In this document: positions 2,450 to 55,204 of the stretch, piece after piece
Numbering within the stretch: position 1 is the first letter of the stretch
Layout: each line of letters begins with the position of its first letter
Assembly (NCBI GenBank): GCA_027382625.1
Contig: JAJKFJ010021673.1
Span: 62,001 to 126,000 of the forward strand
DNA: 64,000 bases
Source of the DNA: Tetmemena sp. SeJ-2015
Taxonomy: Eukaryota; Ciliophora; Spirotrichea; Sporadotrichida; Oxytrichidae
Direction of reading: 5' to 3'
Notes under the pieces: model-generated
Database searches by the model: none
Seen by the model: the letters and a program-made list of their open reading frames with translations, nothing else
What the model was told of the DNA's origin: nothing
Position numbers and translations under genes: made by a program

Positions 2450-4569
2450 TCATAAATTATTGCTTCTAAATGTATATCTATTGCTAGTTTGAGGCCGTCT
2501 TGGCAATTAATTACTCTCTGTAGTATTTAAGATGTTATCCAAACCCATGTTTTAATATCTTTAGAAGGAGATCTCATTTATAGGTCTAATCAATTTATCT
2601 TCTTGCAATATTTCCTACAGCTCCTCAAATTTCTTTAGTTTTATAGGCACATACTTTTCTTAGCTTTTAGCATACTTTGGATCAAGATTTTTGCTTATAC
2701 TTTCTGGTTAGTTTCCAGATTTTATTAGCACCGATGTTCTGTTAAGTCCAGGATTTTTATCTATGCTTTCCTCTCTTATTACTTAAATGTTTTAGATAAC
2801 AAAAGCATTTTCATCAGCAGATTCTTATGCAGACTAATTTGAGTTTGCTCTTTCATTATTCATCATGATAGCAGCTTTTGAGTTATTGAGAAATCTCAGT
2901 CCTTCATTTTTGAAATGCTTAAGTTTTAGAGAGTTAAATAAGAGATGAATGCTCCTGCTTCTTGTTTAATTATTCCTCTTTAACGCCTTCTCTTTAGCTA
3001 TTCTGAGCAGTATTATATTCTGACTTCCTCGTGACCTATTTCTTACTCAAGTCTTTGAGCTTTTGAGTTTCTGCTTGAAGCTTGGTCATACTTGAGTTTT
3101 GGCTTTGTTAGATTTAAGACAATAAGTTCTACTAACTCTACATTTGTGCTTTAGAGGCATTTGACTTAAAGTCTCTGCTTCTCTTTCCTAGCTAGATTGA
3201 GCTCTCTTATTCTAAATTAAGTGTGCAGAGGCTGATTGAATTCGGTTGACATTCCTTCTTTGAACATTTGTGGATCTTGGCCGATAAAAAATAAAAAATT
3301 TATCTAGGTTCGATTCTACTGTACTGACTATAAATCAGCAGCTTCGATATTCTTAGGCGAAGCTCCTTCTTTAAAAAACCGAGAGGGTAAGAGGCCTGAG
3401 GCGGAGCTTTCATGATAGCGAGATCCAATTAAGCCAGAATGAGTATGAGTAGTGGTAGGCTTTAAAGAGACTTAAGACTAAGTATCTGACATGAAGATAT
3501 CAGGGCTCACAAAAACTTTTCCATCGAGCTGATCCACTTGGAGTGCAGCCTTTAAATCAGAGAGCTCTTGAACTTGAGATTTAAGAAAAATAAGAGCATT
3601 ATTTTAAAATTAGGTTTTCTTCAATTTGTTTTCTATTACTTTAGTCTTCTTCCATCTAGCTTAGAATTTGCTCGTAAAGTGGAACTATGAATTAAGTGTA
3701 AGTGTTCAATATTTTTTACCTTTGACATTATTGATTTAGTTGGTAAAGTTATAAGAGGAGGATTAAAGTTGGTCCTGCAGTGACCAAATGACTTTCTCTA
3801 ACCTCTCTATTCTAAACTCATTCTTGCCCTTTCTTTAATGAGTGGTCTGAACTTGCCTCTGAAGGTCATTTAACTGAGCCCTTAAAAATTTGAATTCACT
3901 TAGACTTATCTTACCTATGCATCAGTTTTAGTTAGTCAACTGAAAGCTGAAACTCTTTCACTTAGTTATTAAGTTTCTCTACCATCTTAGAAACTCCCTC
4001 TCCATCAAAAGAACAAAAAATCATTTTAAGTTACATCCTTTGTGTCTAGTAAATTTCAAATAATTGCAAATGGTTACCTTTTTATTTGTAGTGTTATAAA
4101 TCTTGATTCATCTTGAACTCCTACATCACAAGAGTTTGATGGTCTTTCTGCTGCTGATCTATTTCCATAAAAGCAGTGTTAAATTTCAAATCCACAGCTT
4201 CAAAGAGTCTACCATAGTCTAAGAGCTTCTAGTTAATATGGAATAAATCCATTCCTTACTCATCTTAAAATAGCTTCATAAATTAATCTAGTCTACTTAT
4301 AGCATGTGCCATTTTCTCTCCATATTCCAAGTTGAAGTCAGAGATCTTGTCCAAATTAATTTATAATGAAAAAAGTCCATAGTTTTGGTGAACTGCTTGA
4401 TATCTAGAGAAATCTCATTAATCTAATACTGCAAATATCTGTTATAAAGCTTCTGACTTTTTTCTAAGGTTTCTAGCTTCTTAACATTGGTTGTGAGATA
4501 TTTATCTCCAAAGCCGTGCTTGTTTAAAAGTTGCTTTACCTTTGTGGAAGCCACGCTTCCCTCAGTCAT
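2450..4569 (-). CDS. Predicted coiled-coil protein, function unknown
   Basis: Minus-strand frame starting with ATG at 4569 (MTEGSVASTKVKQLLNKHGF) and ending at TGA 2450-2452. The N-terminal third is helical and charged (MEIDQQQKDHQTLVMQEFK, VSKMVEKLNNQVKEFQLSVD), as in coiled-coil cytoskeletal or tethering proteins. The C-terminal part is Asn/Ser/Glu/Lys-rich and probably disordered. The frame is interrupted at 4349-4379 by a 26-bp segment flanked by GTCCA repeats; removing it restores the reading frame (see IES entry). At least one canonical intron begins near 3052 (minus strand gtaagaaat). The start codon overlaps the TGA of the upstream gene (ATGA), which is unusual. No known domain recognised. 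Confidence 0.5.
4354..4379. other. Candidate 26-bp internal eliminated sequence with GTCCA pointer repeats
   Basis: Direct repeats GTCCA at 4349-4353 and 4375-4379 flank an AT-rich 21-bp spacer inside the minus-strand gene at 2450-4569. On the minus strand the frame before it reads KQFTKTMD and the frame after it reads KISDFNLEYGEKM. The two are out of phase by 2 nt, and deleting one repeat plus the spacer joins them in frame. No GT..AG intron fits. This is the expected signature of a non-scrambled ciliate IES. Confidence 0.65.
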
Positions 4570-12091: not shown

Positions 12092-12342
12092 GGGTGGTGG
12101 GTCCCCCACCGCACGTGCGGTCCCGGACCGCACAGGGGTCTCCCCACACCGCACGTGCGGTCTGGGACATATGTGCGGTGTGGGGAAGTATGTGCGGTCC
12201 CGGCACCGCACGTGCGGCTCCGTACCGCACATATATTGCCCCAGACCGCACATATATTTCAAGTCATCATAAATGTTCTCTGTATCTTAATCAACATGTT
12301 TCACACATGAATTTTAATTGGCTAGATTGGTGTTCTTACCTT
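12092..12342 (+). repeat. Left terminal inverted repeat of the 3.9-kb element
   Basis: Pairs with 15731-15980. The outer 160 bp are palindrome-rich (ACCGCACGTGCGGT units separated by TCCCGG, TCTGGG and ATATAT spacers). The inner 90 bp are AT-rich and match the right copy with a few substitutions. A 32-bp part at 12148-12179 lies between CCCCAC and GTGGGG arms and could fold as a hairpin arm. Confidence 0.85.
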
Positions 12343-13305
12343 ATTGCTGGTTTTTATGTTTAATGAGAAGAATATAAAATGAAATCAAGATGGATGACTT
12401 ACCTTTTTTCTGATCGGTTTGAGGTCCCCAACTACTACCACTGGTAAAAGGCCTAGCAGTAGTAGTAGTAATCAATTACTTCAGTTAGCTTTTTCAGTTA
12501 GTAAAGTCCTCGGATCATTAAAGTGAGTTGATTGGATGAAGTTTTACTAGTTTTAATATATTTGATAATAGCCACTATGGCCACTCCTGAGCCTAAACAC
12601 TAAAATCTCCCGGGCCTCATGATTACCCTATATGGATGTGATTCAGAGCTTGACTTGCCGACAATTCACGTTGATATTGACCTCCACCCGTGCCCACTCT
12701 CCGATACATACTATAGCTAGCAAGAGATCAAGTCAAGATTACCTGCTAGGGCAAATATATACCGATCCGCAGCGAGAAAGCAAGCCAACCTCTTGGATAT
12801 CGACGCTTCGCTGACCTCCCCACTCAATAGAGCTAGGAGGATTCATATGTATTCTGCAGCAGCTAGTCCCAGATAGCATTCAGAGATAAACCTACTTTCG
12901 CCACCTGCCAAAGGTTCTCTCTATATAACAAGCTTGGTTCAGCCAAACGCCCCAGGCTCATCCTAGATGGTTATTTGAATACTAGCGTACATTTCTTGTC
13001 CCGTGCCACTTCCTATTTCCATCTTGGCAAGGTCTGAAATCGTTGGATCTCAAGAGCTCACCCAGAATAGTGGATCGAGTCTTGTGGCTCTTGAGCAGCA
13101 GCCTCATTGATCTCTCGGAACAGTAATCGTGCTCATCGAGAGTGCAGGCTTTGGAATGGTCCGAGTCCTAGTTTCATAGATCTAAGGCCCATAACGACTC
13201 CTCTACGCACTCTGCTATAGAGCAGATGACGCATTGGTCAGATGCGCCGCAACTAGCTCACACGTCAAGATGCTCGCTCTAGAGCTTTGTCATGCTGGCC
13301 AGCTC

Positions 13306-13985
13306 TCATAAAGCTTGATAGCTTAATTAGGTTGAAGGCTCTCTAAGTAAGACGAGATACAATCGCTACACGCAAAGGCTAAACTGGAGGATTGGTATAA
13401 CTTTAACACTTAAACTCTTATCCTATTTAAAGGAGGTTCCTAATGATGGTTGTGCCGCCTTGAAGCCTCGAGTAACAATATCAAAAGTGCAACCATCCGA
13501 GCTTCTTGAAAAATATTGAGGACGTAGATGTCGAGCATTGTATACCAACAAGTCATCGATGGCGTCAGGGAGTACAAAGAGTTTGTGCATTTGATCGTTG
13601 AGTACCATTATGTCGAGCCCATATTTGATGGTTGCAATGCCAAGATTCTTGCATAATCTCTGCTTAATGATTATTAAAGCTTCAATTCCATCAAGGCCTC
13701 GGTCAAGAGAAGAGAGGCAATTCTCAAGGATACACTCAACAAAGATCAGGCCATATTCATTTACTCCAGTAGTCCATTGCAAGCAAGATGAATTTCATTC
13801 TTAGGAAGCGCAGACTGTAGTTCTGCTAGTCCATGCTCATCCATTATGATCGATGCTTCGAGTCCCGCAGCTACACTTACGCCCTGGGTGATGTGCTGGA
13901 AGGAGTGGACCTAGCTTGCATACCTTCCAGGGAGTGTGTGTTCAAGATTACACTCAATGAAGATTGGTGATTCAAAGTGACCTGG
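13306..13985 (-). pseudogene. Degraded minus-strand frames inside the TIR element
   Basis: Two overlapping open minus-strand frames, out of phase with each other. The upstream one (about 13790-13985) contains FESPIFIECNLEHTLPG and the downstream one (13306-13790) contains NEYGLIFVECILENCLSSL. The two phrases are similar, which suggests an internal repeat or a frameshifted tandem domain. No family recognised and no clear start. The base composition is like the rest of the element, not like host genes. Probably a decayed element gene. Confidence 0.3.
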
Positions 13986-14242
13986 AGATGGATTAAAGGC
14001 GAATATGAGTAAGAGCGAGACTAAGAGCTATGACAAGGATAATCAGCAATGGAGAAGCATTGCTTAAGTTCACATAATAGAAGAGCTTTTAAAAATCACC
14101 TAACTGATTCTAAGCAAATTACTCAGGTTGTGCCACTTCATTTTTATTACCTTAATCGAGTGATCCAGGTGAACACAATACATCTTAAAACTATAAGTTA
14201 TCTCTATGTTCATTTATAATTATTAGTATAGTCTAAAAAGTT

Positions 14243-14890
14243 ATGGATCCCTCGAATAATAAGACTTTCTTCTAGGTGAGCTCCTATATCAAGAGTAAGC
14301 AGGAGCTGCGCAAGGCCACGCAGAAGAATGGCTACTTCATGCCCAAGCTCATGAGTTAGGCAGTAGCCTAATATAACCTACTGCACGTGATTTTAGGCGT
14401 AGTCTGGTGTGCCACGTATGAAGAGATAAGACTACTGACTTGTCCCCGTTCTCCCTCATCGGATATCTTATTTTACAAGCCCTAGGAAGTTGCAGGGAGG
14501 GACAGAGTGTGCATCTTGATGGATGAGTAGCAAATGGCTGATAGAGTGTGGCTCCTGACCATGCTTTCCATGTACAAGCCAGTCGACGAGATCTTCAAGA
14601 AGGGGTACAATTATCTGTTCAAGGCTTGCACTAGGCAGAGCCAGAAGACTGTGGATCTGTAGTGGAGCTTCCTCGAAAGGCAGCCTATCTCCAAGACAAA
14701 GTCGAAGGCACAGCGATTTTTCTTCCTCAGCTAGAGCAAACAGTCGTAGAGGCTCCTACGCCTCCAGGACCAGAGGGCCAAGCTTGGCCTGCGGATGGAG
14801 ACTCAAAAGATGTTAATAGAGTAGAGAAGGAAGAGCAAGCTGCAGCGATCCATTTCGGAGGGTCAGTGTTGGGCCAGGCGGTCCTGCTGA
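14243..14890 (+). CDS. Intact 215-codon element protein, unknown function
   Basis: ATG at 14243 (MDPSNNKTFFQVSSYIKSKQ), stop TGA 14888-14890, open without a break. Eleven or more in-frame TAG/TAA are read as Gln, so the frame is adapted to the ciliate code. The middle shows VCILMDEQQMADRVWLL. The C-terminal third is very basic (KTKSKAQRFFF, RLLRLQDQRAKLGLRM), consistent with nucleic-acid binding. It is the only undamaged frame in the 3.9-kb TIR element and so is the best candidate for an active element function. No similarity to a transposase DDE core or a Rep HUH motif was recognised. Confidence 0.45.
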
Positions 14891-15517
14891 CTCCCTTAGA
14901 TGTACCGGTGCCGCTCGCCGTTGCGAATGTATGCGTAGCAGCTGCATGAGCGGAAGTATATCTCGTTCCTAAGGAAGAGCTTGGCTAGCGTGGCCGGGCA
15001 GACCCTGGGTGCCTCTAATCGCACTTAGTAGAGTATTAGTCATTGCGCTATTTGAGGCTCGTGTGTGCCATCTCTAGCAGGTGCTTGGCATAGGTGATGA
15101 GCGCCTCGATCTCACAGGGTATCTTCCGCACTCCTTTTCAGTTGGATCTCCTCGATTCATGGATGAAATCGTTGCGGCGTTACCTCTGGATGATCATCAC
15201 GACAGTGCTGGCTTTGATGCCCATGGATTTGGCCACTTTATTGTAGCTGAGCAGGATTTTATGGTCATTGTAGACGGTCCCGTAGCGCAGCCTATGGCAA
15301 GTAACTACTGATCGGCTGTGTGCTTGGCCCTGATTCTCAGCTTCGATGGACTCCACCTCTTTGGTTGGACTAGAAGACTCGGACTACCCATGCCTATCAA
15401 ATAGGTTATGAGGTCTAGGTCTGGTATGTGAGGTGCGATATAGTTAAAGTTATCATAATATTAGAGGAACTCGACCAGATTCGGCTTGCGTTATCTGCTA
15501 TCTTGAGTGGCGTTCAT
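14885..15517 (-). pseudogene. Broken Tc1/mariner-like transposase N-terminal region
   Basis: Minus-strand frames starting near ATG 15517 (MNATQDSRQRKPNLVEFLQ). In a second frame comes a helix-turn-helix of Tc1/IS630 type, HKILLSYNKVAKSMGIKAST, at about 15175-15275. A segment in the same phase reads CEIEALITYAKHLLEMAHTS. A third frame gives ATLAKLFLRNEIYFRSCSCY at about 14920-15010, the usual second helical DNA-binding part of such transposases. In-frame TGAs and phase changes break it, and the DDE catalytic domain is not seen downstream, where the plus-strand 215-codon frame lies. Likely a decayed transposase, unless the breaks are IESs. Confidence 0.55.
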
Positions 15518-15730
15518 TAATACAGATATTTCACACCTTACTATTAATTTAATACTAGAAATGAGTAACTACTCAATACTGATATAAACTAACTATTATT
15601 AGATATTATAAAATTTTTTATTGGTATAACTGCTTTTCCTAACATTTGTATATTGACAAATAAATTTATGACAATATACCAATGTTACATAAAGCTGTTA
15701 TACCTATTAAATTTGTAATAATATCTGCTA

Positions 15731-15980
15731 AGATAAGAACACCAATCTAGCCTATTAAAATTCATGTGTAAAACATTTTGATTAAGATACAGAGAACATT
15801 TATGATGACTTGAAATATATATGCGGTCAGGGGCAATATATGTGCGGTACGGAACCGCACGTGCGGTGCCGGGACCGCACATACTTCCCCAGACCGCACG
15901 TGCGGTCTGGGGCATATGTGCGGTGTGGGGAAACCCCTGTGCGGTTCGGGACCGCACGTGCGGTGGGGGACCCACCACCC
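15731..15980 (-). repeat. Right terminal inverted repeat of the 3.9-kb element
   Basis: Inverted copy of 12092-12342, about 90% identical by eye outside the inverted core at 15893-15924. The core reads in the same direction as the core of the left end with 31 of 32 bases matching. Confidence 0.85.
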
Positions 15981-42360: not shown

Positions 42361-44527
42361 TCAATAAAAAGAGATTCTATTTTTTAACTTATTAAAGGAA
42401 GTATAATCATCATTTTCTCCGGCTTTCATGCTGTCTAAAGTTTAATCAATTTTTGGCAGACCAAAGAAACTAGGCTTCATCTCCAATCTAGGCTTTGACA
42501 GTCTATCAGTAATTGCTTTAAGTGCTTAGACTTATACAGATTTTTCACTCCCCTCTCCAATTGTACCATAACCTGTATTTACAATATTCATATTATGCGC
42601 CTTTTCATCTTCCAATATTTTAAACAGTTGCTGTTTCTTCTTCTAATCTCTTTTGATCTTGTAGAATATAATCTTTTCAAAATTAAGATTTCCAGTTGCC
42701 TCTGGCTTTTATACAACTCTACTCAGTGCTTAATTCTTTTTCCTTTGAGCTAAAGCTGCAAAATTATTGCCATTTTACTACGAATCTGCCTAATTCTAAG
42801 GTTTATTTTCTTCTTCAAAATCGTCATCATCGATAAATATTTCAGTCTAAATGCTCTTCAGAGTAGTTGAGCTCACCACCCCATACTTATGCAAGTCCTT
42901 ATTCAGCTACTAAGTACTGAAGCATTTTGTAAAATCTGAGATAGACTCTTTCTTTAAAGATTACTTGCTGAGCATCGCTCTATTCTAGATTTGCCTCTAT
43001 TTCAGGTTTTGAAAAGTGGAAACTTAACTTTTCTTCTCTTGGCCTGCAGTGGAATCTTCGCCAGTTCTTTCTGCACTCCCTAATACTTTTCTCAGGGATT
43101 CCTTTCTTCTCTTATTCTTCTTCTTCTTCCTATTAAAATCAAACTCCTCATCCTAGGAGTCAGAGGAAAAACTTAAGTCTATTTCCTTGGATTATCCCGC
43201 CTGCTTAAAAGTTGAGAGTATTTGATTTCGCAGATCCTTTTTCTTCTACAATTGCTAATCCAAAAAGTGAGGCTTCACAACTTATTGAGTAGGCCTCTTT
43301 TAGGATTGCGAAGGTGTCAACTTTGAAGGGGAAATAGTTGCCTTTAAATTGGTAGAGGAATTATTTTAGGACCTATTTTTATCACCTAGTGATAAACTAG
43401 ATGGGCCCTTGCTTAGTTGGTTCATGAGTCTTGATTTTTTAGGCTTTGAAAGCTTTAAGATATACTTATCGCCCGTAAATTGGCTGTACTTGTACTTGAG
43501 ATTGGGATTCGCCTCCAACTTGGTTTCTCTAGCTGCTACTTCCTGAAGCGTAGAAACTACTTGTGTTAGAGGATCCCCTATAACTTGTTTTGAATGGCGC
43601 CTCAAGATCTTGAAAATGCTGAACTCTATGTTCTTCTTAGGTCCTTGCGCCTATTGCTAATCATGGTGCATATTCTAATTCCCAAGATTCTTAAGACTGT
43701 TCTTAAGATTAACTGGAGGCTTAAGAAGTGCGACTCTTGGTTTTGGTTTAATCCCTAATTTCTACTTTTCCATCTCTGCCCACATCAACTCAATTTCTTT
43801 GAGGAATCTCTCCTGCCTCACATCTAGCTGTTGCTTGTTTTCTCTTCTTACGCAAATATCCTCTATCACTTCAGACCACATCTCATTGATTTCCTTATTC
43901 TTTCTAAAACTTTTAGTCTCAGTGCCTTACATAGGATAATAGTACATTCTCTTAACTAGTACTGAATAAGTGCTGGTTTTGAAAATGAATATTATTTACA
44001 TTCCTCAAATTTTACTTTTACTTTTACTTTACTTTACTTTAGTCTCAGTGCCTTTGATAAAGCCTTAATATGAAATGATAGTATGAGAAATATCGCATTA
44101 TGGATTTATTATTCTTGAGAAGAAGAACCTCCTATAGCTTTGAACAGAGCTTCTCAACTTTCTTCTCCTCTACTCTTCTCCGTTCCATACTGCGACTGTA
44201 GTTAGATCTGAGACTTAAACTCCTCTCTTTCCTCTTGCCAGGGGAAACTATTGAAATTATAATTACTTAAACTGGTGACTCTTCATAGCAAGAATTGAAA
44301 TTAACCTTGCTTGAGGATCTTTGCCTCGACTAGGAGAGTGAATTCAACTCCTTCTTCTTTTGAGGGTCGAGAGGATAGTCTGAGGAAAACTTGGTCAGTT
44401 TAATCGTAGCTGGGGAATCTGTGTTGCTTGTATCTGTCCCTTCTAGTTTATTCTTTTGGATATACTTGAGTAAGTCATAATAAAAATCAGAATGATTTAG
44501 TAAAATTTGTAAGAAATAGGAGGGCAA
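42361..44527 (-). CDS. Lys/Ser-rich protein with helical middle; IES inside; 5' end missing
   Basis: The frame is open from about 44540 (LPSYFLQILLNHSDFYYD) to TGA 42361-42363 (NKLKNRISFY). No in-frame ATG precedes the first residues; the upstream codon is TGA. So the start exon is not adjacent and may be a separated segment (see the 44-bp inverted repeat). The middle has NEMWSEVIEDICVRRENKQQ and LKEIELMWAEMEKQKLG, then a basic stretch (NRKKKKNKRRKESLRKVLG). The frame is interrupted at 43912-44054 by a 126-bp segment with 17-bp direct repeats and an in-frame TGA. After its removal the protein reads YQGFIKGTETKSFRKNKEI. Function unknown. Confidence 0.5.
43912..44054. other. Candidate IES with 17-bp pointer repeats
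   Basis: TTTAGTCTCAGTGCCTT occurs at 43912-43928 and 44038-44054 in the same orientation. The 109 bp between them are AT-rich and contain ACTTTT-type repeats and an in-frame stop for the minus-strand gene. Both repeats are read in the same codon phase, and deletion of one repeat plus the spacer (126 bp) joins KGTETK to SFRKNKE without a break. There is no GT..AG pair at the ends of the spacer. This is the classical layout of a germline IES, and the pointer is unusually long. Confidence 0.75.
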
Positions 44528-44540
44528 TGAAAAGTTTAAT
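44497..44540 (+). repeat. 44-bp inverted repeat, copy 1
   Basis: Identical over 44 bp, in inverted orientation, to 47837-47880. It lies at the 5' boundary of the minus-strand gene ending at 42361, exactly where that gene lacks a start codon. This is the position and polarity expected of a pointer between an inverted pair of germline gene segments, although it is longer than most pointers. Confidence 0.7.
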
Positions 44541-44620
44541 CAATCTTAATCCGATCTGTTATAATATAAACAATTGTTTAATTAAAAGATTTGAAAAACA
44601 TTTTCGGTCAGGTAGCAGAG

Positions 44621-44940
44621 ATGAATAAGCATCAAATTATTAGAGATCCAGGGCATTCTAGCAGGCAAAGTAACTATATTTTTAATCTAATATCTATTTA
44701 ATTTTTCAAATAAATATTTTCATTTTTTATAGATGACTAAGATGATAAAGGAAGCGCAGAAATGTTTTCACTTAGATGTAAGTAATATAATAAGGATCAA
44801 ATGTCTTTCAATTGCTTATTCTTCAATCTGAGACAAGATATATTAGATTATATTTTGAGTCTTAATTCAAATATTTTATTAAAAAGTAAGCTCCTACAAG
44901 GAGATAAATAATTTCTAAACCATTTCTTGAACATCAAGAA
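44621..44940 (+). CDS. 5' part of an unknown plus-strand gene
   Basis: ATG 44621 opens MNKHQIIRDPGHSSRQ. A GT..AG intron (about 44677-44730, ending TTTTTTATAG) follows, then NDQDDKGSAEMFSLRC and CLFFNLRQDILDYILSLN. The frame then enters AT-rich DNA without coding character, so the rest of the gene is interrupted or lies elsewhere. It is divergent to the minus-strand gene at 42361-44527, with about 90 bp between them. Identity unknown. Confidence 0.4.
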
Positions 44941-45177
44941 GAAAAATAAAATATTCAATATCATTAATTTTTTTATCTTCATAATATTTTTGCCAACATT
45001 AAGTCTTCAATTAACCCAAATAATCACTTTTAAAATGGCGGATAACCCGGGGGCCATCAAAATCCCCCATTTCATTTTTTTCTTTCTTAAAATTTAAATG
45101 TTGAAATTGTAAATAAATTATCGAGATAAAACATTATTAAAATTAGTTCAAACTTTCATCTTTGCTACAATTCAAAA

Positions 45178-45215
45178 TGGCGGATTTTCCGCCATGGCGG
45201 ATAATCCGCCATTTC
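45178..45215. repeat. Tandem GGCGGATWWTCCGCC palindromes
   Basis: Two adjacent 15-bp palindromes, GGCGGATTTTCCGCC and GGCGGATAATCCGCC, separated by AT. Similar pairs occur at 47309-47338 near the far end of the AT-rich region, with GGCGGAAAATCCGCT units. Possible terminal structure of an element. Confidence 0.6.
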
Positions 45216-47308
45216 ATTTACTAAAATATATTAGATGATTATACTTTAGAAGCCAATATACTTTCGATGGATCGAGAGAAGTTCATAATTAATTTCAAAT
45301 AAAATTTCAAATAATTTCTTTTCGTTTCTAGAAATATTTTTCCTACATCCTTCTTCAAATTTTCTTGAACTTAAAATTTTTTTGGATTCTTAAATTTTTT
45401 TACCTCGCTAAAAATTATCTCGATATAATTCGATCAATAGGATAAGATTTCTAACTTATTATTTCTTTCTCTAGAGCTATTATGAGAAGTCTTCCAAATA
45501 AAAATATTTTTCTTCAAATGGTTTAATATCACCTTCTGCGCTCTCAGAGACTTATCTAAAAATCACCCAAAAAATATTTTGTCATTCACAATTATAAATT
45601 AAAGAAACATAAATAAAAGTGTAAGATTACTAAAATCATTAATGCAATAGGTGAATGAAAAGTCATTTCATAAAAAATTGAAAATTATTTTTGTGGACAC
45701 AATTATGTTTAAGGTATCTTCAAGTCTCAAATTAGACTTTACTATAAATCATTAAAACACTGTAGTTTCCCAAGATTAAGTTTTGCGATAATTAAAATTT
45801 GGCAATCATTTACTGTATTCATCTACCAAAAGGTTGAAAGCTTTTTTCTATATATGAAAAGTCAAATTTACACAAATAAAAAAATTTGATTTCCTACTTG
45901 GTATTAATGAAATCCCCATAAACATAAAGTGGCGACTATGATTTAAAAAATCACAGAGGCTGTTTATCAATTTTTTTGACATCAGAAAAAAACAATCTGA
46001 TCAGAAAAGAAACACAAAACAGCATGAAGGAGAACGATTCAGGAGGTAGATCAGAAAAAAAACATAGTTTTAATGAAAAACAATCACACTCTCAAATTTC
46101 AAAATTCTCACTTGAATAAAAGAAATTCTATGTACCCTATATGGAAAACTAGTAAATCAAAGCTATTTACTATATGAATTCAACTGGGTCAATTTGATAT
46201 TTACTTTTCACAAACAGACTTTTGAATAATAAATTGGAATTCAATGAAAGGAAGTTGGCAGATTTCAGTATTCACATGTGGGCGACTTTGATAAGAGGAT
46301 GATGAGATTGGATCTTCAAAATTTTTCAGGTGTCACTTCATGTCCAAATTGATCTCCTCATATACATCACTGAAACATATAATCAACAAATTACTATTAA
46401 GGCTGTTATCTCAAAGTAAAAATATTTTTGATTTCTTAAACTTATTTTCATAGATAAAAACGGAAGAGCTCTCTAGATCATGAAGCAACCAACTCAGATG
46501 TTCAAGGCCAGAAGAAAGAAGCAGAACACTCCACTTATCACATTACAAAAAAAATTCAAGAACATGGGTGATCCTGAAACAAAATAATTCTGACCAATCA
46601 CATGTTCTAATTTTGATACTTCAGTCACAACCAAATGAAGGAGAAAAAAAGTGACTTAAATTAAATTCCTCCAAGTTGAGACTTAAAGTTTGATTAAAAT
46701 TCCTTATGAGTTAACTCAATCCTAATAAATTAATTCAAACATAATTACTAAACTGTCTAATCACTAATATTAACAAATTTCCTTTTTGCTATGAGCTTCT
46801 TTTAATTTTTTTTCATTCATGTTTGAGATATTCATCTACATGCATTTGTATTTATTCGAAATAATTTTGAATTAAGTTTAAATATAGCTATGCTCATTTT
46901 TCATAATGTGGCTTTGGTAATTCGGAGGAATGGAAATGGAAATATAGCATTTGGAAAAATGAGTTTATAATGCTTGAGTAAAATTTTAATCAAAACAAAT
47001 TTTTTTGATAAACCAAAGGGAAATCAATTCAAAGTTGAAATGGTTGAAAGTAATGAAGAAATATTTTGAATTGAAATAAGAAATAAATGAAATTACTTAG
47101 CAATATATCAAGTTATGATTACAAAATTCTTTGTGAATTTTCTGCGCTGGCGAATAATCAGCCCTTCTAACTTTAGTTTATATTGAAAGTTTCAAGCAAC
47201 TTTATATAATATATTAAATGGAAAAATATTTTTTATTTATGCAATATTATCGCCAATAGACATATTCAAAACACTAGAAATTAAAGTATTTCCTTTAGGG
47301 ATCAAAGG

Positions 47309-47338
47309 CGGAAAATCCGCTCGGGCGGAAAATCCGCT
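47309..47338. repeat. Tandem GCGGAAAATCCGC palindromes
   Basis: Two units GGCGGAAAATCCGCT in tandem, separated by CG. They are related by inversion to the cluster at 45178. Confidence 0.6.
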
Positions 47339-47781
47339 CTTATAAAATTTTTTGATGATTGATTAAATTAAAAACATTTAAACTCTAATGCAGACGACAA
47401 ATAATAAATTATTGCCTAATTAAATATTGAGAACAAGAAATTGATTGAAAGGAAACTTTTTATATTGTAATTAGGCTTCCTAATAGGGAGCTGACTAATG
47501 AGTTATTTGAATTAAGAATCTTAAGATTTTTTATATTGTTTGTTTCATTAAGTCAATTTAAGAGCAATTCAGAGCAATGAATTTCATAATGAATAACTTA
47601 CAAATAAGATAAAAAATAGTTCTCTCGTTTTAAGATAAGCAGACTATAAAAAAGAAATATTAGTTTTAGAATTTATATAAATATATGTTATACGAAAACA
47701 ACTTACTTATCTTGCAATTATTAATTGTTTTATATTGAAAATGTTGTCGGTACCTCGCTGTCTCTTGAACTCAAAATTTTT

Positions 47782-48149
47782 TCAAACTAACAAATTAAAT
47801 AATTGACTACATTATAATATGATCAACCTTGAATTAATTAAACTTTTCATTGCCCTCCTATTTCTTACAAATTTTACTAATTGCTAATAATTATTATAAA
47901 AGTCATTGCCATCATTTTACTTGACAAGTACTGAAAGTCCCCTTCCATCAGCAGCCTTAGATTTCTTGAGGATAGGCTTTAAATTCTAAATGCCTAGCTA
48001 GTTGCTGAAACCAGAGAGCCTAATCTGTGTATTCTGAGCGTTAACAGCTTTAGGGGTTGACTCAATCGATCTTTGCAGCTCTAGCTCTCTTTGAGGGAGC
48101 AACTGGTGCTTAGTTGAGGGTTATTTCATCATCTCATAATAAGACATAT
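47782..48149 (-). CDS. Small protein, unknown
   Basis: ATG 48149 (MSYYEMMKQPSTKHQLLPQR), stop TGA 47782-47784, 122 codons without a break. Ser/Gln/Lys-rich; includes LQRSIESTPKAVNAQNTQIR and GRGLSVLVKQNDGNDFYNNY. The last 40 codons run through the 44-bp inverted repeat at 47837-47880, so the C-terminus may not be native if that repeat is a germline segment junction. No family recognised. Confidence 0.4.
47837..47880 (-). repeat. 44-bp inverted repeat, copy 2
   Basis: Inverted identical copy of 44497-44540, 3.3 kb away, inside the C-terminal part of the small minus-strand gene. See copy 1. Confidence 0.7.
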
Positions 48150-50277: not shown

Positions 50278-50319
50278 AGATTAAAAATATACACAATTAA
50301 GACTTCAATTAGTAAATTA

Positions 50320-50716
50320 TTGTAGATATAGCATTGATTTCGCAAATTTTTTTTTAAATACAAGGTTGTTGAGTGACGGTTGACTCTAGCTGAATGTCAT
50401 TCGGAATGGCGTGGCTGAGAATGCTTGGCGGTTGGAAATAATTTGTTCTATTCTAGGTGGAATTTAATTGGAATGGAGAATTAATTAAAAGTACGCCTTC
50501 ATTAAATTAAAAACATCAAATTAGCAAATAATAAGTCTGGAATATTGGAATATTCCAATCTTTGAAAACTGGAATATTCTAGTGGCAAATAGAAGGAAAC
50601 AATCAGAATCAGGGCAGGAATACTTAGAAGATGTCAATAATTAGGGCGTAGAAATATTCCAATAGTCTAAAGTGATTAGACTCGGAAGTGAGATATATAA
50701 AAGAGGGTGTGAATAT
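50320..50716 (+). repeat. Left 397-bp terminal inverted repeat
   Basis: Inverted copy of 52214-52610. It matches base for base in every block compared, including a run of nine T, so the element is young or its ends are homogenised. It contains the palindrome TTGGAATATTCCAA and the related GGAATATTC units. Confidence 0.9.
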
Positions 50717-50786
50717 TTAATTATTATTTAAAACATCAGGGACTCTAGAAAATGAAATACAGCATTCGCAATCTCAAACAAATAAT

Positions 50787-52147
50787 ATGCAATCCATAAA
50801 AGAAAACAAAAAGAAAGATCCTAAGTCCTACCACAGTAAGAAGGCCTTCTTCAATCAGCTTAGTATGGTCCTGACTCCAGACCAAGCTTTGTAGCTTTAA
50901 GATCAGCTGTAAAACTAATTTGAAGAGATTGAGCAGACCCCGATATTCGAAACCACTGGGATAAGCAGCAGTTCTTGGTGATCCTTCTGAAATAGAGCTC
51001 CTTTGGCAGAAGCAAGTAATACTTTCTCAATATTAACTACGCTGGAAGAAAGTATTTGGACGAATTGGGGATTCTCTGCACAGGTATCAGCCGCAGCAAT
51101 CTTTCGAAGGCAATTAAGTAAAATGGCCCAGCAAAAATGCTTGTCGGAACTGCGGAGCGCATTCTAAAGGAGCTTGACTGCGAATAGAAGAGTCCAGCTG
51201 TTGAGGGGTAAATCAATATAGCAGAGGAGGAAAAGGAAAGCGATTCAATTTGCCAGCAAGTAATTCAGCTCATTAGAGAAGGCAAAGTCTTCAGCTACCA
51301 GGACTTTTTCAATAGAAATATGGGCGACTCTGTCATGAGTGAGATGCTGACTGATCGCAGAAGGAAGCTTGAGAGCTTATTCAGGCTCTTTAAAAACGCA
51401 GGTGTCATCAAACAACAGAAAGTGGACCACATTGAGCAGCTGGTGATGTACTTGGAAAGAATGAGATTGGAGCCTGCCAGAAAAGCAACAGCCAATTGTG
51501 TTTCGGATGAAGTGATCCGCCAATTCCAGCTTAGAGATGCGTTGGACGCCATTTACGACATCATCATCTTGCAGACTGATCCAAAAACGAAATGTGTATG
51601 GCTTCACGGCCTCAATGGGACTGGCAAAAGTTCCCTAGCAAGACTACTCTAATAGATCTTCCAGTCAGAGAGATTAGAGGAAGTGGATGACAACTTCTGC
51701 CTGGATTAGAAATCGGAGGGATTACTTCCCACTCTGGTCATATTGGACGAAATCAACTACCCGATCTTCTTCAGAAAAAAGAGCCTGGCAAAGATGAAGC
51801 GGTTCCTCGAGGGCGCAGGATTTGTACTAAATGTGAAGCACGGGGAAGCGGGCAAGCGATTTGTGGGCTGCTCTACTTTGATCACCTCAAATGAGACACC
51901 TTTGAGATATATGAGTGAGCTGGACAGAGGTGCTTTCTTGGCTAGAGTTAGATTTGTGGAGATGCACAGAAGCAAGAACTACACCTAGAAGACTTTCTCT
52001 TTGAACGCTGATCAACTTGCACTATACTTTGAGCAGAGACTAATTGAGGATGGCAGGATCATGGCTGGTGTAGGAGAAGAAATTGATGGGCTCAAAGACA
52101 CCTGCACACAAGACTACACCCTCATTGACAAGGGAAACTTCTTATGA
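50787..52147 (+). CDS. Rep-like replication protein with superfamily 3 helicase domain
   Basis: Main frame 50933-52147 (405 codons, stop TGA 52145-52147). A short upstream frame from ATG 50787 (MQSIKENKKKDPKSYHSKKA) is out of phase and stops at 50979. They can be joined by an intron such as GTAAGAAGG..GAGCAG (about 50832-50936) or by a frameshift. The helicase part shows Walker A GLNGTGKSSLARLL (about 51608-51650), Walker B LVILDEIN (about 51735), a B'-like stretch FLEGAGFVLNVKHGEAGKRF and motif C STLITSNETP (about 51874), in the order typical of SF3 helicases of CRESS, parvo-like and related replicons. No HUH nuclease motif is visible in the N-terminal part. Several in-frame TAG/TAA as Gln show adaptation to the host code. 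Confidence 0.8.
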
Positions 52148-52213
52148 CAATCAATGAGAATGTTCGATCGCTAATGCCAATAAGGATCTCCCTTAGTAAT
52201 TTATTAATACATT

Positions 52214-52610
52214 ATATTCACACCCTCTTTTATATATCTCACTTCCGAGTCTAATCACTTTAGACTATTGGAATATTTCTACGCCCTAATTATTGACATC
52301 TTCTAAGTATTCCTGCCCTGATTCTGATTGTTTCCTTCTATTTGCCACTAGAATATTCCAGTTTTCAAAGATTGGAATATTCCAATATTCCAGACTTATT
52401 ATTTGCTAATTTGATGTTTTTAATTTAATGAAGGCGTACTTTTAATTAATTCTCCATTCCAATTAAATTCCACCTAGAATAGAACAAATTATTTCCAACC
52501 GCCAAGCATTCTCAGCCACGCCATTCCGAATGACATTCAGCTAGAGTCAACCGTCACTCAACAACCTTGTATTTAAAAAAAAATTTGCGAAATCAATGCT
52601 ATATCTACAA
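52214..52610 (-). repeat. Right 397-bp terminal inverted repeat
   Basis: Inverted partner of 50320-50716, ending CTATATCTACAA followed by TA. Confidence 0.9.
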
Positions 52611-52615
52611 TATCA

Positions 52616-55204
52616 TTGGCTATAACAACTTTGGAAAACTCGAGGGCATAGGAAAAGAAGCGAATTATCTTTGGGATTAGAAAGCTTGCTCAAAATTCAG
52701 AGATTAACCTTTCCGCTTCAACTAGGATACTCTCTGATAATAACTTAACTACTCAACAAGATGAGGAAGACATTTAGCATTCAAATGGTTTTCAATAATT
52801 TATAAATGCATAATGTTGAGATTGACAAGAGAGAGAAGAAAAAGACTTGCGTCGACTATTTTCTAATAAGAGAAAATGCTAAATGGAAAGCCGGATGGGA
52901 TATCCTCATTAACTTCTAGGTAGCTTATTCATGCTTCACCACGATTTATCAAGTGTGCTTTGATATGAGCTCCTCTTTAGGACTGGATGTCTTCAACTAC
53001 ATGGTTGAGCTCTAAAAAGTATTCTAAAAACATTTATATAATCATGAACTTTTTAACAGAGTACAAAGACCCTGAAACTTATGAGACAATTCAATTCTCT
53101 ACTCTAATTTCAAAGAGATATGCCTTCAAGGGATCCTTTGTTATTGACTTTGCCATATACTCATCTTTAAATTTTTCAATACATATTGGGAGGAAACTAA
53201 ATACAGACCAAGCTTGTGAGATTATCTATCAAGAGTTGAAACTTATAGATATCTCAAGATTCAACTCCCTTTTGAAATCTGTCTTAAAAATTTAATGATC
53301 TGATAATAGCCAGGAGGAGCGAATCATGTTGCAGTATTTGCTGATGTATGCTTACAAGATCTTCAGACTGTTCATCATCGCCTTTATTATAACTTACTTC
53401 AGCGGCTGTGTTTGGTACCTAATAATCAGCTAGTACAGAGATTAAATGAAAAATAAAACCAACTACTATGTAAATGATCTCTTTCTATTTCAAAAACAAG
53501 ATGGAAGAAATGGATAACACTTCCAGGTTAATCGTCTCTTGCTACTTTGCGTTGACTACTTTATCAACTGTTGGCTATGGCGACTATTATCCAATAACTG
53601 ACATAGAGATAATGACAGCTGTTACTCTTATGCTTTGTTATTCTCTATTTGGGCTCTTTCATTGAAATTATCTCAAACTATCAGAAGAAAATGGGAGTGG
53701 TGGATAAGTCTACCTTCCTTAGAAATTGGCTGACTCTACTTACAAGATTCACTGGAAACAAGCCTCTTTCAAAGAGAAGTAATATTATTCTAGAGGCTCA
53801 CTTTGCTTACTTCTGGCAGCATGACAGACTTGCTTCAATCCATTAGCATTATGATACCCTCAATGAACTTCCTAAGACCATGAAGAGAAGATAGTGAAAT
53901 AACTGTAATGTGATGTGTTTGAGGACATATTTCACAAGTTCAAGCATTTCTTCAAGACCTATGAGAATAAAGAATCCAAGTTCTTATACGATGTTTCTTT
54001 TGGATTTCTTCCTCGCTTTTTCAACTCTAATCTAATCAGTTATAAGAATTACTTAAGGAAGATACTGTCAGATAACTATTAGCGTCTAATTAAATCCAGG
54101 CTTGATTAAATAAGATCCCGTCCTAACTTAATAGTGTTTATGAATAGAGTGAGATCCCTGAAATGTACTTTTGCTTAGAGGTATGGAGTTTCTAATATGC
54201 GATCATTATGTGGTGAACAATAAATAACTAAATCACTTAAGAATCCTTTGACTTTAACTAATGATATAGTCAAACAAAAAGAACGTCTACCGAGTATTTA
54301 ATCACAATAAATATATAATTGATGAAGTTAGCAAATAAGGGAACCACCAAGAAGGATCAAGATGCCATCATGAATCAGCAGTTTATAACTTAAATTCGCT
54401 AGTATTTGTGATGATGAATTAGTACTTAACATTAAATATATATTTCCATTTTTGTGTATTTTTAGTTGAAGATGAAAGACTTTTCGATGAGCTAATAAAC
54501 TATACTTAGAAAAGACTCTTCCAACTTGATGAAGCATATTAATAAATGCTAAAATTATTTTGCGAACAAGAAGCTTCAGAGTGTGAATAAATGTGCTCTA
54601 AATAATAATTAGGATTATAAGAAAAGTATCCATCTCCTAGCAAAGATTAAGAATAACTTGTCAAGTTAGTCTTACCAAAGCTAGATATATTTGCCATAAG
54701 AAAATACCATCTTGACAAGATTCGTAGAAGGATATTTATTACTTATATTTGAATATGAGATAAGAGCCTGTTAAGAGAGTGAAACTAATTTTATAATTAG
54801 AGAACAGCAGAGCTCTATGGCTTTTGGTAAACTAAACCTTGGAGGAATCATAAAGAGGTAAATAAGATAATTATTCCAAAGGCTGCTTAGATCTGCAAAA
54901 AGCTAAAGCTAGATTTCAATTCTATATTTTTGAATATTTTATGAAGTGGAGGTGGCCGTACCCATCCTTGCATTTTATCTTAATTATTAAGATTCTTGAT
55001 GAATACAGTAACTTAAAGTATTAAAATAAGATTCTTTATTTTATTCCAAGTTTACAAAGTTTACTAAAAGAGATAAAAGAAAGAGAGAGCTTTAACATTC
55101 AAAAGAAGGCTAAAAAGGCTTGGAAAAGCTTGCTTAGGTCAATTCTCGTAAAGAAGTACATTGCAAGTAAGTATGACGTTGGAGAGCAACCTTTAAATCC
55201 TTGA
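52616..55204 (+). CDS. Voltage-gated-type cation (K+) channel, copy a
   Basis: Plus-strand locus ending at TGA 55202-55204. A first transmembrane part FLIRENAKWKAGWDILINFQ..YSCFTTIYQVCFD is at about 52850-52960, followed by MNFLTEYKDPETYETIQ at about 53044. The pore helix and filter CYFALTTLSTVGYGDYYP is at about 53540-53600, then S6 and a linker (FIEIISNYQKKMGVVDKSTF). A C-linker follows: FEDIFHKFKHFFKTYENKES with FLYDVSFGFLPRFF and EIPEMYFCLEVWSF. This is the ciliate cation-channel family related to EAG/CNG channels, with TVGYGD giving K+ selectivity. The cyclic-nucleotide-binding part is broken by frame shifts (IESs likely). The start is uncertain because it lies at the edge of the mobile element. 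A long Lys/Gln-rich helical tail ends the gene. Confidence 0.75.

Follow-up and report, generated by a model that had tools for sequence, protein, structure and literature searches.

The classification of DNA transposons rests on their transposase, whereas initiator helicases are regarded as genes of viruses or plasmids. The origins of papillomaviruses and polyomaviruses contain short arrays of binding sites, the inverted terminal repeats (ITRs) of adeno-associated virus (AAV) hold Rep-type tandem repeats, and an origin with its initiator is usually recognised by an initiator gene accompanied by matching repeats. Polinton-like viruses (PLVs) and virophages have terminal inverted repeats (TIRs) and superfamily 3 (SF3) helicases, and the viral part of Teratorn is a herpesvirus. 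Here we describe a TA-flanked element with an SF3-type helicase gene (Rep) at positions 50318..52612 of a 64,000-nucleotide stretch of Tetmemena sp. SeJ-2015 (assembly GCA_027382625.1, contig JAJKFJ010021673.1, positions 62,001 to 126,000 of the forward strand), referred to below as the window.

In the titles and opening abstract lines of the best-ranked open-access texts, superfamily 3 helicases were met together with transposons and target-site duplications in work on Teratorn, thaumarchaeal elements and PLVs, the last given as 14-40 kb long (PMC12220804). TBE transposons are reported to leave in the form of circles during nuclear development of Oxytricha (PMC6765146) and to be under purifying selection (PMC4724952). 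No named element of the present kind was met in these titles and abstract openings, in agreement with the initial annotation, and the element differs in kind from any known to us or encountered in this literature. We give about an even chance to the reading that it is an SF3 replicon moved in trans by a TA-transposase, with an iteron origin in the inner part of its TIRs.

Element structure and insertion at TA

Self-comparison of the window located two inverted arms of 399 nt each, 100% complementary and spaced 1,497 nt apart. TA forms the outermost 2 nt of either arm, leaving a TIR proper of 397 nt, and the TA-flanked 397-bp TIR element of the initial annotation was thus recovered as described. 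Both arms are gap-free and identical, as they also are in two relatives (L023 and L033, 100%).

For 24 elements, the two flanks were joined and the product was searched for in the same assembly (146.2 Mb, 5,213 contigs). A contiguous match across the flank join was found for seven elements and not for the other 17. For the window element the empty site (L051) lies on contig C502, of which 1.6 kb were read; the joined flanks align there at 95.5% over 1,603 nt. The empty site holds one TA where the window element has two, so that the element is a real TA-duplicating insertion. In the search itself, the matches were 93% identical for the window element (C502), 92% for L015, 100% for L033, 95% for L038, 95% for L024, 94% for L026 and 98% for L043, the last with additional 84% matches at two places of contig C113. 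With 92-100% identity to the joined flanks, the empty sites may be other alleles or paralogues. The C502 site is probably one of these, because it diverges from the window flanks by several percent, and somatic excision is not implied.

TA was found at both ends of 28 of 30 elements (in L020 and L029 one of the ends lacks it), a count that was not blind, as the end finder used already seen end motifs near independently found arm ends. The 30 comprise the window element and 29 of the 40 loci found. Eleven loci with an end that had decayed, was missing or could not be located were left out (L013, L016, L017, L022, L025, L028, L031, L032, L035, L036 and L047); L013 and L017 are still among the 32 elements whose arms were compared.

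A chance inverted repeat was ruled out by the perfect 399-nt arms together with the many family copies and an empty site that joins exactly at one TA. An assembly artefact was ruled out by the same architecture on many contigs.

The features of the element are as follows; the motif names on Rep are those that we take the residues to represent.

50318..50319, no strand: left TA, target-site duplication (single TA in empty site L051)
50318..50405, + strand: left outer tip module, type I, TTGTAGATATAGC..., with unrelated sequence there in relatives such as L014
50320..50716, + strand: left TIR, 397 nt, 100% complementary to the right arm (with TA, 50318-50716)
50537..50576, + strand: left-arm iteron-like 8-bp repeats, CTGGAATA, TTGGAATA, an inverse copy at 50551-50558, CTGGAATA
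50655..50662, - strand: left-arm iteron-like unit in inverse orientation
50787..50981, + strand: N-terminal part of Rep, ATG at 50787, in a frame differing from that of the helicase part in the window copy
50975..52147, + strand: SF3 helicase part of Rep, 390 codons (TAA/TAG as Gln, TGA as stop), longest internal open reading frame (ORF)
51608..51631, + strand: Walker A, GLNGTGKS, located in the translation
51734..51757, + strand: Walker B, LVILDEIN, located in the translation
51791..51862, + strand: B' region, KMKRFLEGAGFVLNVKHGEAGKRF, KMKRFLEG..NVKHG, where 11 aligned members share several invariant K, G, E, N, A and R residues
51872..51901, + strand: motif C / sensor 1, STLITSNETP, located in the translation
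52214..52610, - strand: right TIR, 397 nt, 100% complementary to the left arm (with TA, 52214-52612)
52268..52275, + strand: right-arm iteron-like unit in opposite orientation
52354..52393, - strand: right-arm iteron-like 8-bp repeats, mirror of the left
52525..52612, - strand: right outer tip module, from comparison with the arms of relatives
52611..52612, no strand: right TA, target-site duplication (single TA in empty site L051)

Rep and its helicase part

According to the ORF list, the SF3 gene is the only long ORF inside the window element, and no capsid gene is present. The earlier expectation of one protein between the TIRs therefore stands as to the single SF3 gene and fails as to its integrity, since a frame change splits the N-terminal from the helicase part. 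In L010 and L014, Rep is naturally open through both parts (489 and 490 codons, stop to stop). TAA and TAG were read as Gln: Rep and DDE_3 protein matches hold in-frame TAA/TAG and few TGA, and a window ORF of 961 codons, with Pfam matches of PHD type, contains 57 in-frame TAA/TAG, which supports this reading. The code itself points to a ciliate host.

Walker A, Walker B, B' and motif C were all located within a core of ~100 residues of the window Rep. Together with the invariant positions across 11 members and the matches to PF19263, presumably an SF3-type family, they bear out the SF3-type protein that had been proposed. PF19263 was the best Pfam family, found at E≤0.1 in all 11 members of alignment A1, the window copy included. 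Among the six members with printed scores, its curated cut-off of 27.6 bits was passed by L029 (33.7) and L033 (29.5), and the window copy (22.8), L037 (21.5), P0001 (21.1) and L045 (20.5) were below it. Other families were matched at E≤0.1 by fewer members: RNA_helicase by 9 of 11 (printed scores under the cut-off), Parvo_NS1 by 7 of 11 (best 19.4 bits, cut-off 20) and PPV_E1_C by 3 of 11 (best 16.4 bits, cut-off 26.5). Of the profile checks that the initial annotation had suggested, that for parvoviruses (Parvo_NS1) thus came out narrowly negative; PPV_E1_C was clearly so. Against the PDB, the window copy gave as its best match the primase 6k9e over residues 197-318, which is not significant (E 0.14), and the family profile gave an APS-kinase P-loop (E 0.0031), others being weaker.

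The N-terminal part has no conserved His pair of an HUH nuclease and no shared H-x-H (motif level, up to 10 rows). It has one His-rich column only (6 of 8 rows), and conserved Tyr positions are present. An HUH Rep identity was set aside for want of this motif, which is evidence against an HUH nuclease at the motif level, short of proof. Viral_Rep (PF02407) had no match in this genome, and the control genomes gave none either. Placement of Rep in the circular Rep-encoding single-stranded (CRESS) or parvovirus-type class, as had been considered, was not upheld, given the lack of a conserved HUH His pair and the scores of Parvo_NS1 and PPV_E1_C under their cut-offs.

Iteron-like repeats in the inner arms

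When arms were compared with themselves at a lag of 8 bp, 14 of 32 reached 15 or 16 matches in 16. No arm reached 15/16 at lags 4-7 or 9-15, four did at the harmonic lag 16, and at lag 8 none did so in up to 500 random window segments. This lag test is independent of any motif; the rule WTGGNNNA was set after the arms had been looked at.

The sequence of the units identified with this rule differs between Rep clades. TTGGAATA was found in 15 of the 16 members of clade A and TTGGAACA in all five members of clade B, some TTGGAACA also occurring in L021 and L026. Further units were ATGGACTA (L043, L044, L048), ATGGAATA (L029, L039), TTGGTACA (L036, L038), TTGGTTCA (L046) and TTGGTGGA (L037, L045, L047). 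The deep clade F has three different units, and identity to the reference is as low as 41-45% in three of its members. On these sequence comparisons, the repeat largely follows the Rep clade, as origin iterons would.

Arms and tips

Arms were located by self-comparison of the loci, and their identity within an element had a median of 0.992 (range 0.85-1.00, n=32 elements). Gaps are ignored in this value, the arms of L042 differing by gaps only, and the lowest values (0.85 for L037 and 0.87 for L045) come from arms pieced from two matches. Between elements, the window arms were 0.98-0.995 identical to those of L009 and L010, the closest relatives tested, and 0.80-0.93 to those of six more diverged relatives. 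Left-left and left-right identities were about equal, and the arms were therefore made alike after those elements had separated.

The outermost part of the arms behaves differently. The window element and L014 have Reps that are 95% identical and arms that are 93% identical from position 89 inward, and their outer ~70-90 nt are unrelated. The swap is present in both arms, as each of the two elements carries one tip at both ends. L015 and L018, like L014, match the window arm only from arm position 89. In L019, with arms of 552 nt (721-1272 and 2769-3320), a complete type II tip is nested at arm position 218 and an additional outer module wraps it on both sides. Tips are independent of the Rep clade: clade A occurs with types I, II, III and IV, clade B with I and II, and type II was found with clades A, B, C and F (L045 is labelled type I by rule order, yet its end reads as type III). 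From these comparisons, the outermost ~70-90 nt are an exchangeable module, apparently swapped with other jumping genes.

A candidate source of transposase

The window element holds no DDE/D transposase, and the 21 full-length copies are in the same size class. DDE_3 domains (Tc1/mariner-type) are abundant in the genome, all 150 that were scored of 921 candidates being over the cut-off, and the tip pattern had 532 genome matches against 0 for a reversed control. Reading inward from the transposon end TATTGTAAGAATCAGGG (L050), we found a 474-codon ORF with ResIII over and DEAD just below the cut-off. Places encoding this superfamily 2 (SF2) helicase were examined for DDE_3 neighbours (90 of 93, three second fragments being dropped, against the 150 scored DDE_3), and half of them (45/90) have DDE_3 upstream on the same strand, with a median gap of 2,630 nt. 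Because of this linkage, the DDE_3 and SF2 helicase genes appear to belong to one transposon. To our knowledge, an SF2 helicase partner is unusual for a Tc1/mariner-like transposon. An example of this DDE_3 and SF2 (ResIII/DEAD) transposon is C2780:2898-7576 (L049, L050).

In 11 of 29 SF3 elements, the type II tip matches the end of the DDE_3 element and scores above all 10,957 TA sites of the window. Partial matches to type I tips were found in facing pairs that are about 3.1 kb (C4689, C2595) and 1.4 kb (C2171) apart. The initial annotation had contrasted an SF3 Rep with the Tc1/mariner derivation normal for TA-bounded ciliate elements. This contrast is weakened by the type II tips common to the DDE_3 element, although the tip of the window element is not shared.

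Two side observations were made. Tip matches occur at contig ends (e.g., C1083:11902-12028): among 100 that were listed, about 40 are at most 250 nt from the first base of their contig, many of them at 105-127, which looks like the assembly graph breaking at an abundant repeat. An AT-rich segment at 44480-47897 of the window has 65-nt inverted repeats of 88% identity and inner repeats of GGCGGATTTTCCGCC, a sequence also found near the DDE_3 ORF in L049.

Family size, selection and distribution

With 106 of 425 candidates scored, the protein search for Rep gave 110 matches, which are 28-97% identical and in many cases free of TGA. Full-length elements (n=21) measure 2,171-2,396 bp and have one gene each, an architecture that persists down to ~30% Rep identity. 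L011, L012 and L019 are longer. L021, L023, L024 and L026 are short derivatives of ~1.16-1.17 kb with near-identical arms that keep the last ~110-130 Rep codons; a half-unit rule for them was dropped, as facing tip pairs elsewhere are ~0.8-1.3 kb apart.

The Rep gene is broken in many copies, the window's among them. The ratio of nonsynonymous to synonymous substitution (dN/dS) was 0.17-0.26 in eight of 10 computable pairs and 0.43 and 0.66 in two close pairs; 12 pairs were tried, two were saturated, and the pairs L043-L044 and L029-L043 take in an out-of-frame N-terminal stretch. Rep is under purifying selection.

No protein homologue at E≤0.01 was found among 6,395 and 7,996 candidates, nor was any of the 1 and 56 pattern matches in IMG/VR viral contigs confirmed, in collections with few or no eukaryotic genomes. 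In prokaryote genomes, none of 189 pattern matches was confirmed, and phages and plasmids gave nothing at E≤0.1. Since the collections hold few or no eukaryotic genomes, absence from them says little on other protists.

Proposed mechanism

The element would be one of many related copies of a minimal, integrated replicon. Its inner TIR would be a replication origin with 8-bp iterons, to which the N-terminal part of Rep would bind, and the SF3 hexamer would melt and unwind DNA without nicking, like papillomavirus E1 or polyomavirus T antigen. The outermost ~70-90 nt would be a transposon tip, and a TA-specific transposase of the Tc1/mariner type, acting in trans, would excise the element and reinsert it at another TA. 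The excised form would probably be a circle with adjoining TIRs that serves as template for Rep; such an intermediate is plausible in a ciliate because excised TBEs of Oxytricha are circles. In this intermediate, arm may be copied onto arm, so that the arms stay alike and a new tip reaches both ends. We propose excision in trans and copying driven by Rep because the core of Rep and matching repeats is stable and the tips are exchangeable. For the virus-type replication of the initial annotation, the support is circumstantial (8-bp iteron-like repeats tracking the Rep clade, likeness of the arms, selection on Rep), and replication, mobilisation and limitation to the germline are inferred.

Several observations weigh against this proposal. 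The type I tip of the window has no match to the sole transposase-associated end read (score -3), the matching tip comes from a single end of a single locus, with the other end absent from the 1.4 kb read, and the association of the DDE_3 and SF2 genes is one of spacing. Clade C has no WTGGNNNA array in any of its four members, the arm of the window element holds CTGGAATA variants beside a single perfect unit and none by the WTGGNNNA rule, and the Rep of L048 scores best against clade D, yet its unit is that of clade E. Because repeats and Rep share one molecule, their agreement may reflect shared descent and not binding. The helicase part also matches the phage primase-helicase family phrog_1156 (E 1.1e-4, PHROGs), the N-terminal domain has no assigned fold (single-sequence AlphaFold, mean pLDDT 33.6), and no extrachromosomal form was seen. 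Gene conversion could homogenise the arms without replication. Neither gene conversion nor shared descent alone, however, explains a conserved Rep with changing tips.

Tentatively, and with rather less than even confidence, we suggest that these elements represent a new class of eukaryotic mobile DNA, namely a self-replicating SF3/iteron replicon without a transposase that swaps both tips and uses various host TA-transposases. If true, it would be a replicon parasitising transposons, in which a stable initiator-iteron core with exchangeable transposon tips brings transposons and virus- or plasmid-type initiators together in a single small element. Such a family would, in addition, be a direct case of coevolution of origin and initiator, with 8-bp WTGGNNNA iterons and clade-specific middle bases. 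For protists with developmental DNA excision, it would predict, in a way open to testing, that elements can replicate between excision and reinsertion.

Alternative explanations

A non-autonomous Tc1/mariner-type element with a captured helicase would also insert with a TA duplication, as seen at the empty site, and would explain the tips that 11 of 29 elements share with the DDE_3 element. The arms would then be kept alike by gene conversion, which for inverted arms needs no Rep, and the near-identical arms of the gene-deficient L021, L023, L024 and L026 agree with this; the repeats would be transposase or host sites. We nevertheless consider this unlikely. Rep is under purifying selection, the one-gene architecture holds to ~30% Rep identity, and the repeats track the Rep clade and not the tip type, the opposite of what is expected of transposase sites. 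Near-identical, ITR-like arms with tandem repeats could instead point to a linear replicon similar to parvoviruses or bidnaviruses, with rolling-hairpin ITR replication and integration at TA by chance or with a helper, and the Parvo_NS1 similarity (7/11 at E≤0.1, best 19.4 against 20 bits) fits this as well. Such a replicon is improbable in view of the N-terminal part without an HUH His pair, the absence of a capsid gene from the element and the TA at both ends of 28 of 30 elements. The strand of the window TIR, moreover, does not fold better than shuffled sequence (z -0.50, 24/100 shuffles as good; window arm only), and a parvovirus hairpin was ruled out on this account.

The narrow range of sizes (2,171-2,396 bp in 21 full-length elements) would be expected if the element were a satellite that a larger virus or a Polinton-like helper copies and packages, its length then reflecting packaging. 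Elements with a single gene are narrow in size anyway, however, and there was no confirmed relative in IMG/VR viral contigs or phage records. The ends and the TA indicate a transposon, and Polintons make longer target duplications, so that we rate a satellite as very improbable. An identity as a Polinton-like virus proper was ruled out by the size of ~2.3 kb with a single long ORF. The many broken genes, the window's included, could finally mean that these are dead germline relics, old insertions that are now merely removed by the host as TA-bounded eliminated sequences and have no activity of their own. The gap-free 100% arms of the window element, L023 and L033, the empty sister site and the open copies with low dN/dS all indicate recent activity, however, and we think it scarcely probable that the family consists of such relics.

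Other features of the window and assembly

To the right of the element (52800-53700) lies a potassium-channel-like gene (PF07885) in several frames with internal TGA; its broken frames would be due to decay, introns or eliminated sequences. Immediately left of the element no gene was identified, and Rfam and tRNA scans of the whole window gave no match.

A GC-rich (~44%) element at 12092-15980 of the window has 252-nt inverted repeats of 91% identity, made of CCGCACGTGCGG-type motifs, and is flanked by the 8-nt direct repeat TTTTTATT. The one inner ORF of it that was scanned had no Pfam match. Similar end motifs occur in L041 (6155-8986). Elsewhere in the assembly, ~300 bp at C2828:3860-4156 form an array of (C4A4)n type, whose exact 24-mer occurs on three contigs only. 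We take the array as a hint of spirotrich-type telomere sequence.

Comparison with known systems

The Tc1/mariner (IS630) transposons of ciliate germlines, TBE in Oxytricha and Tec in Euplotes, resemble the present elements in their TIRs, in a TA-type target (ANT for TBE) and in high copy number, and the type II tips are common to the DDE_3 element of this genome. Unlike TBE and Tec, the full-length copies read here have no DDE transposase and an SF3 helicase as their sole long gene, and their TIRs of ~400 nt carry iteron-like repeats and interchangeable tips.

Parvoviruses such as AAV and the bidnaviruses also combine one SF3 Rep with inverted terminal repeats, whereas no HUH motif, hairpin-forming ITR or capsid gene was found in our element, which duplicates TA. 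Papillomavirus E1 and polyomavirus T antigen share the SF3 helicase, 3 of 11 members matching PPV_E1_C weakly, and NVKHG presumably lies in the B' hairpin with a K-H pair as in these two proteins. The PPV_E1_C score is well under the cut-off, however, and these viruses are circular, whereas the present elements are integrated and have TIRs.

Polinton-like viruses and virophages are likewise integrated eukaryotic elements; in contrast to Polintons and PLVs, the element described here is ~2.3 kb long with one gene and a TA duplication, and no polymerase, integrase or capsid gene was seen. Teratorn, a fusion of virus and piggyBac, is alike in that a replicon is joined to transposon ends (PMC10175614). 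Teratorn measures 180 kb and is built on a piggyBac-like transposon, whereas the Tetmemena element is a minimal replicon that does without a transposase and occurs with several tips.

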